This document shows positions 3,001 to 47,352 of a DNA stretch of 64,000 nucleotides, one piece after another (position 1 is the stretch's first letter; every line of letters starts with the position of its first letter). The notes under the pieces were generated by a model. It was not told the DNA's origin. It searched no databases and saw only the letters and a program-made list of their open reading frames with translations. The DNA is from a virus. Both the position numbers and the translations under genes were made by a program. The stretch lies in the IMG/VR virus record IMGVR_UViG_3300021440_000022, positions 1 through 64,000 of that record. The stretch is one strand, 5' to 3'.

Positions 3001-6000
3001 CGCCGGCGAGGTTTGGAAATGCGTTCCTGAACTCCGCGGCGGCGGCGTTGCGGGCCTCCAGCACGGCCTTGTACTTGTCGAACCCCTCCTCGTCCATGTG
3101 ATCTGGGCGCCTCAGTGGCGCATCGATCTGGGCGAAGGCGAAAGGGTTGCGCGAGCCGCCCTTCTTGAAGTCGTGGAAGACCACCACCTTGCGGCCGATG
3201 GCCATGTGGTCGCGCACGTGCTGGATCACCTCCTTGGCCTTGATCGCCTCCAGCAGGTACCGGCGCACCAGGTGCCCGGTCTTGCCGAACAACTGGTCGT
3301 TCAGTTCGGCCTCGATGAAGGCCCAGCCGTCCACCGCATCCTCCTTGTCCTTCTTCTCGATCCTGGATGTCTTGGCCTGGTCGCGGATCCACTCGATCGC
3401 GCGGTCAATCTCGTTGCCCACCGCCGACTCGGCAAGGATGAAGCGGCGGTCGTAGTCGGCATCGACGTCGAGCATGCGCCCAGACAGCACGCCCTGCTTC
3501 TTCAGCCAGCCGTTGAACTGGCGCTGCAGCAGGCCTCGGTCAACCTTCGAGTCCGGCTCCGTGAGCTTGCCATAGCGCATGCGGTAACCGAAGTGCTGCA
3601 TGAAGAACTTCTCGCGGGCGCCGCCCTCGTTGTAGCCTGGGCTCGCCTGCTCTTTCGCGCCAGCCCCGTCCGGGTCGTAGTCGAAGAGGTAGCCGTCGGC
3701 CCAGTCCACCGTCTTCTCGTAGGCGAACGGCGTTGCCGACAGGCCTGCCACGCGCGTGCGCTTCTCGCCCTGCCTGGCCGCCACATCTTCCTCGACGCGT
3801 TTGCGGGCCTCTTTCAGTTTCTTGTTCAGCGGCTCGTAGCGCTGGCGCAGCGCCTCGATCTGGGCGTCCAGATTCTTCCTCTGCTCGGCCCCGGTTCCGA
3901 GCCGATCCTTCTCAAGCTTGGCGATCTGGTCCGACAGGTCGCGGCGCGTGTTCACGTCGTCGCGGTTGAGCATGGCGAAGCGGTCGCTGACGCCGCGCGG
4001 GTGCAGCGTGATCGCCCGCAGCGCGTCCAGCGCCTTGGTCTGCTTGCCGTCGGCCGACTGCATCAGCATGTGCACTTCGTCCGGCACCACCAGGTCCCAG
4101 GAGCGGCCGGCCAGGGCATCGTTCTCGCCCAGGTTCGCGTAGGTCGTGATCGTCACGCCGCGGCCGGCATCCTTCGTGTCCGCCAGCGCCTTGATGTCGA
4201 GCCCCAACGACGTCCCCGACTCGATCCAGTCGGCCATGATCTTGGCATCCGGCACGACGATCAGGACGTCACGCTTGCCGGCTCGGACGAAGCGCTTGAC
4301 GATGCCGAGTCCGCTGAAGGTCTTGCCGGTCCCCGTCCCGTTTGTAAACAGCATGCCGTAGCCGCCTGGCTTCGAGAACCGCTGCTCGGCCTTGAACACG
4401 TCGTCCTGCTGGCCTGGTTGCAGGTATGGCAACGTCGCCCGGATGTTGTCGATCCCGGGCTCCTGCTTCACCGATTCGGCGGCGCGCTGGGCTGCTCGCT
4501 TTTCCGTAGCACTGGCCCACGCAGCAGTAGGCCGCGCAGCCGGTCCTGCTGGCCTGGGGTCAGGCTGAACTCCCGGGATGCCAGGATCGTCGCTTCGCTC
4601 ACCGTCGTCAGTTCCGGCATCGAAGAGCGAAGGCTCTGCCGCCCGGCCGCTTCCACGTAGCGGCTGATCGCCAAGTTCTCGAAGAGGAGAGGCGCCACCA
4701 GTAGGTACGCCCGCGTTGTCCGGGCGTCCGCGCCGAGCGCTTCCAGTTCGTTTTCCATCGGTCTGAGGGCCTTCACCAAGTCCTCGGCCTGAAAGAGCTT
4801 CTCCCACCTCTCGCTCGACATTTCCTGCGTCGCCGCGATCTCGTTCCACACCGGTGTCGGCGTCTCGTACATTGCCCTGCTCCTCTGCGGCCGCAGCCGT
4901 CTCGTCCAGCTTGCCAAGTGGCGTCATGTCGGTCTGGAGCGCCGCAGCGCGGGGGTCGTAGTAGACCGCCGCATACCAGCTCTTCAGGTATGGGCGCACC
5001 ACCTCGCCCAAGTCATCGATCATTGCCTTCGCGTAGGCAGCGAACGTGCGCGCACCCTTCTCAATGTGGTAGCCGGTCAGCGTGATGCCGGCCTGGAACA
5101 CCTCCGGGTCCAGCGCCCCGCCTTGGCCCTTCTTCGTGCCTGGCCGGCCTGGCTGCTCCAGCTTCTTGCGCAGCAGCGCCCGGGCCCGCTCGGCGGCGTC
5201 CTCGGTGAAGATCGTGTTCTTGCTGACTTCCTGTTTTCCCGACTCTTTTGTGGGCGGTGGTGCCGGCGGAACAGCTTCGGCCGCCGCTGGTGCCAGTGCT
5301 GCCGGCGCAGCTTCGATGCCAAGGTCCCGTTGCGTCAGCCCAAGCTTCTCCATCATTGGCGCCAGCAGGCTCACCGGCTTGTCGCCCAACAGCACCGCAC
5401 CTATGGCGTCGGCAATGATCTCGTCTGGCTTCCTGGCGTGCCGCCGAAACCGATCATTGGCGTGGTTGTGCACGCCCGGCCTGAACTCGCGCGAGGCAGC
5501 TACCAGGTCGTCCCAGTTGGAGATGTAGCGCTGCACCTCGCTCTTCGGGAACCCGCGGAACCCCAACTGGCGCTTTTTCATCACCACGTGGCCAAGCTCG
5601 TGAGCGAAGACATGTGCCTTTGACACGTCGCGCTGGCTATCAACGTCGCCGTCAGGGATCGTCACCATGTCGCCGGTGGCGTGCCAACCGCCTGCACTCT
5701 CTGTGACGCTCACTCCGAGGGATTTCGCGACGGCCATCAGCCGCTCGATCCTTGCCCGGCCGGCAGACTGCGCCACCGGCTCAGCGGTCGGCGCTACCCC
5801 AGCGGCTTGTACACCGGCGCCGGTGGCAGTGGGTACTCCCGGCCTGGCGGCTGGGATGCTTGGTGCTGGCGCTGGCGCTTCAACTGGCGCGGCTTCTGCT
5901 GCTGGTGGGGCTGCATCGGTGGGCTGACCTTTCGCTTCGGTGGTGGTTGGCTTGGCCGTCTCGGCCGGGAAGAACTTCTGGCGCGGGCCCAGGGCGCGAG

Positions 6001-43462: not shown

Positions 43463-44893
43463 TCACATCTCCACTTCAGGCGGACCTGACTTTGACGCCG
43501 CCGGGCTACGGTAGTCCTTGGCGAGGTTGTCGAACTTGGTCATTGGCTTGAGGAACACCAGCCGCACGGTTTCGGTCGGCCCGTTGCGGTTCTTGGCGAC
43601 GATGATCTCGGCCTCGCCGGGCGTGAGGCTCTGCTTGTTGTAGTAGTCGTCGCGGTAGATGAACATGATGATGTCCGCGTCCTGCTCGATGGCGCCGCTT
43701 TCGCGCAGGTCGCTCATCATCGGCCGCTTGTCCGTGCGCTGCTCGACGCTGCGGTTCAGCTGCGACAGGGCCAACACCGGGCAGTCAAGCTCCTTGGCCA
43801 GGCCCTTGAGCCCGCGCGTGATGGCGCCGATCTCCGTCGCCCGGTTTTCCTCTCCGGCCACGCCCGCCATCAGCTGCAGGTAGTCGATCACGACGAGGCC
43901 GAGCTTGCCGCACTGCCTGGCCAGCCTGCGTGCCCTGGCGCGGATCTCACCCGCCCCCAGCGCCGGCGACTCGTCGATGAAAACCGATGTGTCCCGCAGT
44001 TTGTCTGTCGCATCAGTCAGAGCGCCCCACTCGAAGTCATTGAGCGTGCCCTTGCGTAGGTGCTGCTGCTGGATCTTGCCGATGCTGCCCACCATCTTCA
44101 CTGCCAGCTGGGTGGCGCCCATCTCCATTGAGAACACCACCACCGGCAGATGCTCCTTCACGGCCACGTGCTCGGCGATGTTCAGGGCGAAGCTGGTCTT
44201 GCCCATGCTCGGCCGGGCCGCCAGCACCACCAGGTCGCCGCCGTTGAGCCCGCACAGCACCCGATCAAGGTCGGTGAATCCGGTGGACACGCCCGTCACC
44301 TCGACGCCGCCCTTGTCGTGCATGTCCTGGATGCGGTCCAGCACCTGCACCACCAGGTCCTGGATGGCCACCGGGCCACTCTGCCCGGCAGCACCCTCCT
44401 CGCAGACGCGGTAAATCTCCGACCCGGCCTCGTCCAGCAACTGCAGCGCCGTGCTCTGGCCGGGGTTGAACCCGCGCGTGGCGATGTTGTCGCCGACGGT
44501 GATGAGTTTCCGCAGCAGCGACCGCTCGCGCACGATCTCGGCGTAGCGGCGGACGTTGGCGGCGTTGGGCACGCTCTGCGCCAGCGAGTTCAAGTAGACC
44601 AGGCCGCCGACTTCCTCGGCCTTGCCCTGGGCCTGCAGTGCCCCGAACGTGGTGATGACGTCGGCGGGCTTGCTGCAGGCAATCAGGCCGCAGATCGCGG
44701 CGTAGATGACTCGGTGCTCGTAACGGTAGAAATCGCTGTCCAGCAGCAGGTCGCCCACGCGGTCCCATGCGGCGTTGTCCAGCAGCAGGCCTCCAAGCAC
44801 GCTCTGCTCGCCCTCCACGCTGTGCGGTGGCACGCGCAGCCTTGAAACGTCGTCATCGGGTGGCACTGGTCGGCCGTCCAGTGTCTTGCTCAT
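43463..44893 (-). CDS. dnaB: replicative DNA helicase DnaB
   Basis: ATG at 44893 overlaps the upstream stop (ATGA); the 476-residue length is normal. The N-terminal domain starts VPPHSVEGEQSVLGGLLLD. The RecA-like domain has Walker A ARPSMGKTSF, Walker B LGLVVIDYLQLMAG, VLALSQLNRSVEQRTDKRP and the arginine-finger region IMFIYRDDYY. It unwinds the fork and loads primase. No separate primase gene was recognised in the window. Confidence 0.94.
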   Translation of the reverse strand: MSKTLDGRPVPPDDDVSRLRVPPHSVEGEQSVLGGLLLDNAAWDRVGDLLLDSDFYRYEHRVIYAAICGLIACSKPADVITTFGALQAQGKAEEVGGLVYLNSLAQSVPNAANVRRYAEIVRERSLLRKLITVGDNIATRGFNPGQSTALQLLDEAGSEIYRVCEEGAAGQSGPVAIQDLVVQVLDRIQDMHDKGGVEVTGVSTGFTDLDRVLCGLNGGDLVVLAARPSMGKTSFALNIAEHVAVKEHLPVVVFSMEMGATQLAVKMVGSIGKIQQQHLRKGTLNDFEWGALTDATDKLRDTSVFIDESPALGAGEIRARARRLARQCGKLGLVVIDYLQLMAGVAGEENRATEIGAITRGLKGLAKELDCPVLALSQLNRSVEQRTDKRPMMSDLRESGAIEQDADIIMFIYRDDYYNKQSLTPGEAEIIVAKNRNGPTETVRLVFLKPMTKFDNLAKDYRSPAASKSGPPEVEM

Positions 44894-45474
44894 GCTGCCG
44901 TCCTCGGGTCGTTGACCACCTTGTCCCAGGCCCGCTCGGCCACGAGGTAGTCGAATGTCACGGGACCGCGTTCGGGGTTGCTGCGCCCCATCATCCAGTC
45001 GCTGCGGCGCGCGCGCTTGAAGTAGGCCCTGAGCCAAGCCAGCGCCTCGTCTTCGGTCGTGGCACGCACGCTGCCATCGCTCCGGCGCTCGGTGAAGATG
45101 CGAAGCCACATGGCGTCCATGAGGCGCTTGCGCTTGATCCACACGGCGCCGTAGCGGTTCGGGATCGGCGCCAGGTTCACCGGCAATTCCTTGCTGCCGG
45201 CCGGCGGCATCCACTTCACCAGCTCCTGGTGGAACACGGCCAGGAATTTCTCGTACGGGCACGGTATTTCGGCCATCGCATGGGCCTGCTTTTTCCTGGT
45301 CTTGCGGGCCCGTCCCGGCACCAACTCCAGCGACTCCACGCGGGCACAAGGCTTGCCCAGTGGCTGTGTGATCCGCTCCAGCAACTCCTCCAACTCCGGC
45401 GCATTGGCGTCGAAGGTGCGCATTTCCCGCTCGCCTGGCTGGTCAGCTGGTAGGGAGACGATCAGTCTGAGCAT
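44890..45474 (-). CDS. replisome organiser / helicase-loader-like protein
   Basis: ATG at 45474 follows CAGGAATTACC. The 194-residue protein ends with RSDWMMGRSNPERGPVTFDYLVAERAWDKVV, close to the C-terminal signature of phage O/DnaT-like loaders (a GR-rich loop then FDWLV...KV). The middle is basic and helical. It is ATGA-coupled to dnaB, as such loaders usually are. Confidence 0.72.
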   Translation of the reverse strand: MLRLIVSLPADQPGEREMRTFDANAPELEELLERITQPLGKPCARVESLELVPGRARKTRKKQAHAMAEIPCPYEKFLAVFHQELVKWMPPAGSKELPVNLAPIPNRYGAVWIKRKRLMDAMWLRIFTERRSDGSVRATTEDEALAWLRAYFKRARRSDWMMGRSNPERGPVTFDYLVAERAWDKVVNDPRTAA

Positions 45475-45759
45475 CGGTAATTCCTGCTGCAAGAAAAGGG
45501 GGGGCTTTGGGGATGGTTGCACATCCGCCGCTCCAGGCTGGGGGTGCTTCTGCCCGCTCCAGCCCCAAGTGCCCTGGGGGGTGACCTGAGTCGCTGCCAT
45601 GCAATGCCTGCCCCGTTGTCATGGCTACCGCTTGCCCGGCTCGTGTCACCAACGGCCGGATCGGCTCGCACGCATGGGTGGCGTGGCCGGTCTTTCTTCC
45701 GGTGCCCCGATGCAGGGGCATGGCTCGTGTTCTCGGCTCGACCGGTAGCCCAGTCGGGG

Positions 45760-45887
45760 ACGGCTTTGTGGTGGTGGCGATCATGGCCGCGTCATCCGGC
45801 GTCCATCCGCGGCGTAGATGCATACCATGGGCTGCTCATTCCCAAGGCCCGGCCGGTCGGCACAATGACCACCACCACAAAGCCGTC
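45760..45887. repeat. 19-base perfect inverted repeat
   Basis: GACGGCTTTGTGGTGGTGG at 45760-45778 is matched exactly by its reverse complement at 45869-45887, with a 90-base spacer. A related ACCACCACCACAAAG also occurs at the start of the Erf gene (49269). Confidence 0.85.
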
Positions 45888-45900
45888 GCGCCAAAAGCAA

Positions 45901-46018
45901 AACCCCGCAAACGCTTTGCTGGGGCATGGCCCTTGGCATGGACAGGATCGACACGGAGGCTCCGGAAGGTACGGACGTGCTTCACCTACGCATGCCCCAG
46001 CAAAACACTCGCGGGGTT
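45901..46018 (-). repeat. 28-base inverted repeat forming a long hairpin
   Basis: Arms 45901-45928 and 45991-46018 match at 24 of 28 positions around a 62-base loop. As minus-strand RNA all 28 positions can pair (24 Watson-Crick plus 4 G-U). Confidence 0.85.
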
Positions 46019-46140
46019 GCGACCTTCCTTCACCTCTGTGCCGGCTGCCACACCGACGAGGCGGACTTTGCAGCAACTGCTGATGCGCGTCAACCCCCGG
46101 TTGCGGCAAGAATTTCCGGACGGCAAGCGGCGCGCCACGG

Positions 46141-47352
46141 TCAGCCACGCGTCACCTCGGCCAGCAGCGGCGCGTCGGCAGCAATGCGATCGGCCGCCAT
46201 CGGCCCGTTGCGCTCGTCCAGGTCGATGAGGATGGCGTCGCGGCCTTCCTGGTCGGCCACAAGGCCCGTGGTACCACTTCCACCAAAGCAATCCAAAACG
46301 GTGCCACCTGGTGGGCACCCGGCCCGCACGAACGGCCGGATCAGCTCGGGCGGGTACGTGGCGAAGTGCGCGCCGCGGAATGGCTCGCTGGAAAGCCAGC
46401 GAACGCTGCGGGGGTTGCGCGTGGCCGGCTTCTCCGTCAGCGCAGCGTCGAAGCTGGCGTTGTTCTTGGCGCGCCAGCCGGCGCCACTGCCCATGCGCGC
46501 GCTCTTGCCGTCGGCATAGGCGCCGTCGTTGCCGCTGGTGGCCAGCGCAGCCTTGGGGGTCTTCGGGTGCTGGCCGGCCTGGGCGTGTGCCGCGGCGTCG
46601 TGCGGGACTTGGCCCTGGGCCCAGCCGTGCGGGTGCCTGGCGCGCGGCTTCTGCACGTCGTCGTAGCCGCGCCCGAACCCGACGCCGGTCGATGCCATGC
46701 GCTCATGCGCGCCCATGCTCGCCGGCTCTTGGATGGCCTTGGCGTCGAAGTAGTAGTGCGCGCTTTTGGCCAGCAGGAACACGTGCTCGTGAGCCTTCGT
46801 GAAGCGGTCGTGCACGCTCTCCGGCATGGGGCTGCGCTTCGCCCAGATGATCTCCTGCCGGAGCCACCAGCCCGCATCCTGCAGCGCGAAGGCCAGGCGC
46901 CACGGCTGGCCCACCATGTCCTTCGGCTTCAGGCCGGGCTGGGCGAGATCAGACCGCGGCACTGGGTGTTTGTCTCGGCGCGGGCCGGCGGTCATGCGTT
47001 GCGCCTTTGGGCCGCCGCCGACATGGCCATTGCCTCGCAATGTGCTGCTGGTGCTGGGCGGCGTTACGCCCTGATGGCCGCGGGCGCCAGCGTATGAGTC
47101 CCCCAGGTTCAGCCACAGCGTGCCATTCGGCTTGAGCACCCGCCTCACCTCGTCGAAGACGCCGACCAGGGTCCGCACCCAATCCTGCACCGTGGGCTCG
47201 CTGCCGATCTCCAGGTGCTTCAGCGGGTGGTTGGCTGGCAGGTATGACCTTAAACCCCAGTAGGGGGATGAGGTGATGCAGCAGTCCACGGAGTCGTCGG
47301 CCAGGGTCTTCAGCACCGCCCGCACGTCGCCGGTGAGGATGCGGACCGTCAC
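46141..47352 (-). CDS. site-specific DNA methyltransferase (N4-cytosine/N6-adenine type)
   Basis: A 403-residue beta-class methylase. The catalytic motif SSPYWGLR lies near residue 28 (a variant of (D/N/S)PPY with SPYW), FDEVRRVLKPNGTLWLNLGD follows, and the SAM-binding motif is LDCFGGSGTTGLVA near residue 360, with DLDERN after it. The linker between (about 210-320) is long and Ala/His/Gly-rich. SPYW suggests N4-cytosine as well as N6-adenine targets. It overlaps the repressor gene by ATGA and may guard phage DNA from restriction. Confidence 0.92.
   Translation of the reverse strand: MTVRILTGDVRAVLKTLADDSVDCCITSSPYWGLRSYLPANHPLKHLEIGSEPTVQDWVRTLVGVFDEVRRVLKPNGTLWLNLGDSYAGARGHQGVTPPSTSSTLRGNGHVGGGPKAQRMTAGPRRDKHPVPRSDLAQPGLKPKDMVGQPWRLAFALQDAGWWLRQEIIWAKRSPMPESVHDRFTKAHEHVFLLAKSAHYYFDAKAIQEPASMGAHERMASTGVGFGRGYDDVQKPRARHPHGWAQGQVPHDAAAHAQAGQHPKTPKAALATSGNDGAYADGKSARMGSGAGWRAKNNASFDAALTEKPATRNPRSVRWLSSEPFRGAHFATYPPELIRPFVRAGCPPGGTVLDCFGGSGTTGLVADQEGRDAILIDLDERNGPMAADRIAADAPLLAEVTRG

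Follow-up and report, generated by a model that had tools for sequence, protein, structure and literature searches.

A long minus-strand hairpin beside phage replication genes and the apparently undescribed RNA family to which it belongs

The P4 CI RNA, the P1 C4 RNA and the lambda oop RNA are small phage RNAs of early or replication regions that work through loop or antisense pairing; oop adjoins gene O and runs opposite to it, and immunity RNAs of the P4 CI type act by pairing with the leader of their own operon, which they terminate. Kissing loops are also a property of plasmid replication-control RNAs of the RNAI/RNAII type. The RNA considered here is predicted around a long hairpin, H1, on the minus strand of a 64,000-nt stretch of viral DNA (hereafter the window; positions 1–64,000 of IMG/VR record IMGVR_UViG_3300021440_000022, the 64,381 bases of which encode portal, major head and internal virion proteins). 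It resembles the three phage RNAs in size class and in its location in an early/replication region, and shares with the RNAI/RNAII type a nearby replication module and a loop specificity that changes fast. Unlike the former, it has an internal kissing pair, predicted to close a 28-bp terminator stem, and is without a match in Rfam; unlike in the latter, the kiss lies within one RNA, and an antisense partner was not found.

A further structured phage RNA, RF02932 (Betaproteobacteria-1 RNA, ∼120 nt), is found upstream of an O-like gene, as is the RNA of the window. In two viral contigs (L091 and L134) RF02932 lies just downstream of an H1-type RNA; its structure is different, and it is a neighbour of the H1-type family rather than the family itself. 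The match in L091, beside a hairpin resembling the second hairpin of the window (H2, see below), scored 76 bits, and RF02932 and tRNA were the only Rfam matches in the loci holding relatives. None of the 4227 Rfam families matched the window at the gathering score; the RF02932 covariance model in particular gave no match there at its gathering threshold, nor at E ≤ 5 within 45400–46300. ARAGORN detected no tRNA or tmRNA in the window, and neither model R1 nor RF02932 was found in 369 genomes of one class. Our literature search retrieved no paper describing the H1-type RNA or a function of RF02932. A cultured phage, Acidovorax phage AP1, has a sequence resembling the RF02932 part of L091 (OM049504, 11882–11980; L138, ∼4001–4099) in a gap that follows its helicase and primase genes.

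The hairpin and the RNA predicted around it

H1 is located in a gap (45475–46140) between a gene for a DNA methyltransferase, on the upstream side of the RNA (46141–47352; PF01555, E 2e-41; phrog_67), and two replication genes, all on the minus strand. The second of the latter encodes a DnaB-type replicative helicase (43463–44893; PF03796, E 9e-105; TIGR00665 above cut-off). The first (44890–45474) had been taken for a helicase loader in the initial annotation, a label that has to be replaced: the gene product matches lambda-O-like replication protein families instead (phrog_345, E 1.4e-8; phrog_5810, E 0.001), aligning with the C-terminal part of the O-like profile; it is on phrog_345 that the O-like assignment depends. 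Searches for relatives of this protein (P0001) in viral contigs (with peptide patterns), in phages and in 369 bacterial genomes returned none, although the empty answer from the genomes proves little. Family searches recognized no protein in the gap, and an Ash/Icd-like gene considered there was dropped, the small open reading frames (e.g. MIATTTKPS...) being without a family match.

The arms of H1 (5′ arm, 45991–46018; 3′ arm, 45901–45928) are 28 nt each, separated by 62 nt, and differ at four positions, each an A/C difference on the plus strand; as described initially, all 28 positions can pair in the minus-strand RNA, with 24 Watson-Crick and four G-U pairs. Among the separated inverted repeats within 250 nt, H1 is the longest that the window contains. 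The minus-strand RNA folds at −66.4 kcal/mol, compared with −45.9 ± 3.7 kcal/mol for shuffled sequences (z −5.5; 0 of 200 as good), and the plus-strand RNA, which opens at the mismatches, at −59.1 (z −3.9). The chance that four transition differences all yield G-U on one strand is ∼1/8, and the four G-U pairs of H1 by themselves are of little weight; it is the relatives that carry the weight.

Like an intrinsic (Rho-independent) terminator, H1 has a stem that is G-C rich at its base and leads into a U-tract: the base, GGGG, directly abuts UUUUGCUUUU (45893–45902), which we predict to be the site of termination. H1 differs from such terminators by its 28-bp stem, by an additional 5′ hairpin and kissing pair, and by a loop of 62 nt where ∼3–10 nt would be usual; a terminator consensus scan did not list it. 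Besides the U-tract, the promoter region aligned with that of a relative, L099, supports transcription on the minus strand toward the O-like and dnaB genes, the direction originally proposed. The predicted sigma70-type promoter (46065–46093) consists of a −35 element TTGACG (46093–46088), a 17-nt spacer and a weak −10 element CAAAGT (46070–46065). With eight of 12 consensus matches it is weak alone, and a stricter scan (9/12) did not report it; the corresponding region of L099 (TTGACA-17-TAGAGT) has equal spacing and lies at a nearly equal distance from the stem.

The whole predicted unit (45891–46057, ∼165 nt) folds at −79.4 kcal/mol (z −4.1), which none of 200 shuffles equalled. It begins with a 5′ hairpin, GUCGGU[GUGGCA]GCCGGC (46040–46057, loop 46051–46046), obtained by RNA folding and aligning with AGGU[GUGGCA]ACCU of L099. 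Within its loop, UGGCA (L1, 46046–46050) is complementary to UGCCA (L1′, 45934–45938), five nucleotides before the 3′ arm of H1. This kiss of only 5 bp is not significant alone, and gains weight because of its position and its counterparts in L099 and L110. A second contact is possible between GGAAGGU (46022–46028) and the loop sequence ACCUUCC (45964–45970), which alone is not significant either (62% of shuffles were as good); comparable contacts occupy the corresponding place in L110 and L135. Taken together, H1, the 5′ hairpin, the weak promoter and the U-tract look like an RNA gene of ∼165 nt with an intrinsic terminator.

Relatives in other viral contigs

Blastn searches with the intergenic region and with each hairpin against 50,697 phages returned nothing meaningful, and relatives were found in viral contigs with patterns built from the arms. 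Twelve relatives share a 5′ hairpin, a long stem of 19–29 pairs, a U-tract (replaced by a Shine-Dalgarno sequence in one) and, in most, a promoter; many of the relatives are fragments from metagenomes. When 12 stems (H1, H2 and ten others) were aligned by their arms, 92.9% of the cells paired, as against 43–54% with the partner slid, and 56 cells carried double changes, as against 17 in shuffles; because some relatives were found by window-derived patterns, pairing in ten pattern columns was imposed by the search, that in the other columns was not. A G five nucleotides outside the UUUUG motif is invariant in the 12 aligned stems, opposite U or C in 11 of them. Over the 11 stems that could be oriented by a U-tract or Shine-Dalgarno sequence, G-U outnumber A-C mismatches 27:1, a ratio inflated by a scoring that rewards G-U. 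In 1.33 Mb of fetched loci, some of them fetched because of such stems, a scan for a long stem followed by a U-tract (score ≥ 17) returned 13 hits; three first-order Markov controls, used in place of a reversed-sequence control that was discarded since reversal keeps hairpins, returned 0, 0 and 0.

The nearest relative of H1, in L110, has several pairs changed on both sides and still forms all 28 (24 Watson-Crick and four G-U, on the same strand). The proposal that an RNA structure is under selection at this site is therefore supported, and extended, by relatives in which the stems change with compensation. The RNAs of the window, L110 and L099 align over their length yet differ in setting; that of L099, added by the stem and U-tract scan, is followed by two H2-like hairpins. 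L091 has another long hairpin, ending GGGGC-UUUUGCUUUUCG, exactly at the place of H1 in the window, and then in order an H2-like hairpin, RF02932 and the O-like gene. Five further contigs, L133 to L137, were found via relatives of the L091 O-like protein, each with a long stem and then a U-tract; a sixth contig with such a protein, L132, had too little upstream sequence to judge. The U-tract reads UUUUUGCUUUUGG in L135 and CUUUUGCUUUUCG in L091 and L134, and is similar in L099, L110, L133, L087, L136 and L137; GGGGUUUUUGCUUUUGG recurs in L135. Promoter-like sequences lie 28–54 nt before the stem in most relatives, with 10–11 of 12 consensus bases in L099, L131, L133, L134, L135 and L136; a promoter scan of L110 found none.

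Most relatives are located near O-like or DnaB genes, and in the window, L091, L134, L135 and L136 the RNA precedes the O-like gene and has the same orientation. The RNA also recurs in phages with little else in common with the window, and in L110 it sits between late genes, on the opposite strand and with no evident co-oriented gene downstream, which argues that it is a movable unit. Since the same RNA shape is present in other viruses with almost entirely different letters, it appears to be the shape that is under selection. By these comparisons, H1 behaves as a conserved RNA helix with its U-tract, in a context that moves, and we consider it a real conserved RNA structure within an apparently undescribed phage RNA family. 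Such a family would escape both sequence searches and Rfam, its letters being hardly conserved and its anatomy alone linking the members.

The loop of the 5′ hairpin, chosen by eye in this analysis, has a complementary site within the long hairpin in 13 of 13 RNAs, and in 11 of them this site is 0–8 nt from the 3′ arm. Cognate loop-target pairs were superior to non-cognate ones (0 of 20,000 permutations), both with all 13 RNAs and with the four strongest removed. The pairs include UGGGUGCAACA/UGUUGCACCCA in L131, UGCCUGCAAC/GUUGCAGGCA in L134, AUGGUGCC/GGCACCAU in L133, GUCGUGU/ACACGAC in L136, GUAGUAC/GUACUAC in L137, GUAGCAA/UUGCUAC in L087 and CUGGCU/AGCCAG in L110, besides UGGCA/UGCCA in the window. 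Judged from these sequences, complementarity is kept while the letters change: compensated changes separate L131 (GGGUGCAAC/GUUGCACCC) from L134 (GCCUGCAAC/GUUGCAGGC), L136 from L137 (pairs as above), and the window from L110 (UGGCU/AGCCA).

Possible roles of the RNA

We tentatively favour, with confidence somewhat short of even, the reading that the minus strand carries a small autonomous phage RNA gene, of which H1 is the long stem that forms the terminator. Transcription would begin near 46057 and yield the 5′ hairpin first, the loop of which, GUGGCA, would kiss the complementary sequence next to the 3′ arm of H1; the 28 pairs of the stem would then form, transcription would stop in UUUUGCUUUU, and a compact RNA of ∼165 nt would be released. 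As the kiss site would leave the polymerase just before the 3′ arm, its contact with the already folded 5′ hairpin may draw the two arms together and aid the closing of a terminator with a 62-nt loop. The outcome could be either a released sRNA or a switch, in which capture of the 5′ loop permits read-through. Promoter, RNA and terminator would move among phages as a block, like a non-coding 'moron'. We infer the transcription of this RNA, its termination and also its target, which would most likely be early transcripts of this or related phages, on which it would act as a regulatory or immunity-type sRNA; the fast divergence of the letters with stem and kiss kept is what one would expect if the loops of the RNA set its specificity.

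A stand-alone sRNA is favoured because the unit of L110 is flanked by late genes and on the opposite strand, and because the RNA recurs in phages sharing little else with the window. Against it count the poor −10 element and the 5-bp kiss of the window, the lack of a promoter hit in L110, a loop that is long for an intrinsic terminator, and the placing of most relatives ahead of replication genes in the same orientation, as would suit a leader as well. A nearly as good reading, and a serious possibility in its own right, is that the replication operon has this RNA as its 5′ leader, or as an internal terminator placed like lambda tR1, in which the kiss nucleates the terminator and capture of the 5′ loop by an RNA, a protein or a ribosome leads to read-through into the O-like gene and dnaB. 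This attenuator would account for the co-orientation with the O-like gene in the window and the four contigs named above, and for L034, where the same anatomy carries a Shine-Dalgarno sequence, AAAAGGAG, in the 3′ arm just before an ATG, replacing the U-tract; L071 has a Shine-Dalgarno-like AAAGGAG in its 3′ arm, and differing expression platforms of this kind are typical of cis-regulators. It is less easily reconciled with L110, where no co-oriented gene is evident downstream, and with the several hundred nucleotides and further RNA elements that separate the terminator from the O-like gene. Among the roles offered initially, a new non-coding RNA is the best supported and a leader is possible; nothing was found that favours a replication primer.

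The remaining explanations appear improbable to different degrees. Stem and U-tract would be equally present if H1 were only an unusually long intrinsic terminator of an upstream transcript, with incidental loop sequences; we doubt this, as the 5′ hairpin and the kissing complementarity are kept in relatives and the stem, compensated along its length, far exceeds what a terminator needs. It is a little harder still to see H1 as a hairpin acting in DNA, whether a mobile palindromic (MITE-like) element or a single-strand replication signal. Recurrence of the elements in different contexts and the clean absence of element B (H2) from L134, where L091 has it, would suit such an element, but the mismatches are G-U on the U-tract strand (subject to the scoring bias noted for the 27:1 ratio), promoter, U-tract and loop-loop pairing are features that fit an RNA, target-site duplications were not seen, and the arm letters are not conserved, unlike those of transposon ends. 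Least probable, in our estimation, is a precursor from which RNase III would cut out a structured core, with the long stem serving in processing as the stems around rRNA do: extended stems of a comparable kind surround two tRNAs of the L107 phage, but a U-tract would be unneeded and the window holds no tRNA.

If the loops of the H1-type RNA determine its specificity, it would represent an RNA-based form of immunity, or of replication control, that is new to the literature. The H1-type RNA adjoins replication genes in several phages, as well as the orphan family RF02932, which provides a testable context for both. More speculatively, and in our view rather unlikely in this full form, the H1-type RNAs might constitute a widespread undescribed class of RNA 'morons' with hypervariable letters, a fixed fold (a long terminator stem, the throat of which is kissed by the 5′ loop) and phage-specific loops, conferring superinfection immunity or incompatibility at the replication region.

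H2 and other structured elements

H2 (45759–45887, minus strand) starts 13 nt past H1 and has perfect 19-nt arms, GACGGCUUUGUGGUGGUGG and CCACCACCACAAAGCCGUC, around a 91-nt loop (z −3.3); the part of the gap beyond it, 45475–45758, showed no excess structure (z −0.15). Its arm and flank are homologous in L091 (27/30, E 3e-6). Ahead of the O-like gene, an H2-like hairpin of ∼126 nt is cleanly present in one phage (L091/L131) and missing from another (L134), the two phages coming from the same metagenome. As it is absent from L134 between the first RNA and RF02932, H2 is, on this sequence evidence, a related and dispensable element. A scan of bacterial species genomes with the H2 arm pattern gave hits at about chance level. 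The H2-like hairpins of L087 (6205–6328), L100 (8943–9093) and L130 (231–345) share the loop motifs GCAGRCUGAUG and GCYGGRGAUCAGYRCCRGC, which are mutually complementary (GCUGAU/AUCAGC in L100 and L130, ACUGAU/AUCAGU in L087) and may form a second covarying kissing pair. In L130, CUGAUGA was also considered as part of a hammerhead and rejected as such, the other core elements being absent.

Several other elements were observed in the course of the searches. In L107, from the same phage as L105, tRNAs Arg-acg (5478–5577) and Gln-ctg (5748–5852) lie inside long extended acceptor stems, the inner part of which (YUUUGCUGGG / CCCAGCAAAG) is identical to that of the H1 stem. L008 contains a hairpin of unrelated letters (1302–1423), with a perfect stem of 18 bp around an 84-nt loop, just before a Shine-Dalgarno sequence and ATG on the minus strand, and a Sedimenticola sp. 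MAG (L127, L128) has two strong hairpins with stems of ∼20–24 bp, the letters of which differ with compensation. Finally, L135 and L136 carry a second block (CCGAACUUGGUUUAGGUAUCGG ... GCACAAGAU ... AUCUUGUG, in varying order) between the long stem and the O-like gene, which is nearly identical in the two contigs despite their differing long stems and is possibly another RNA.
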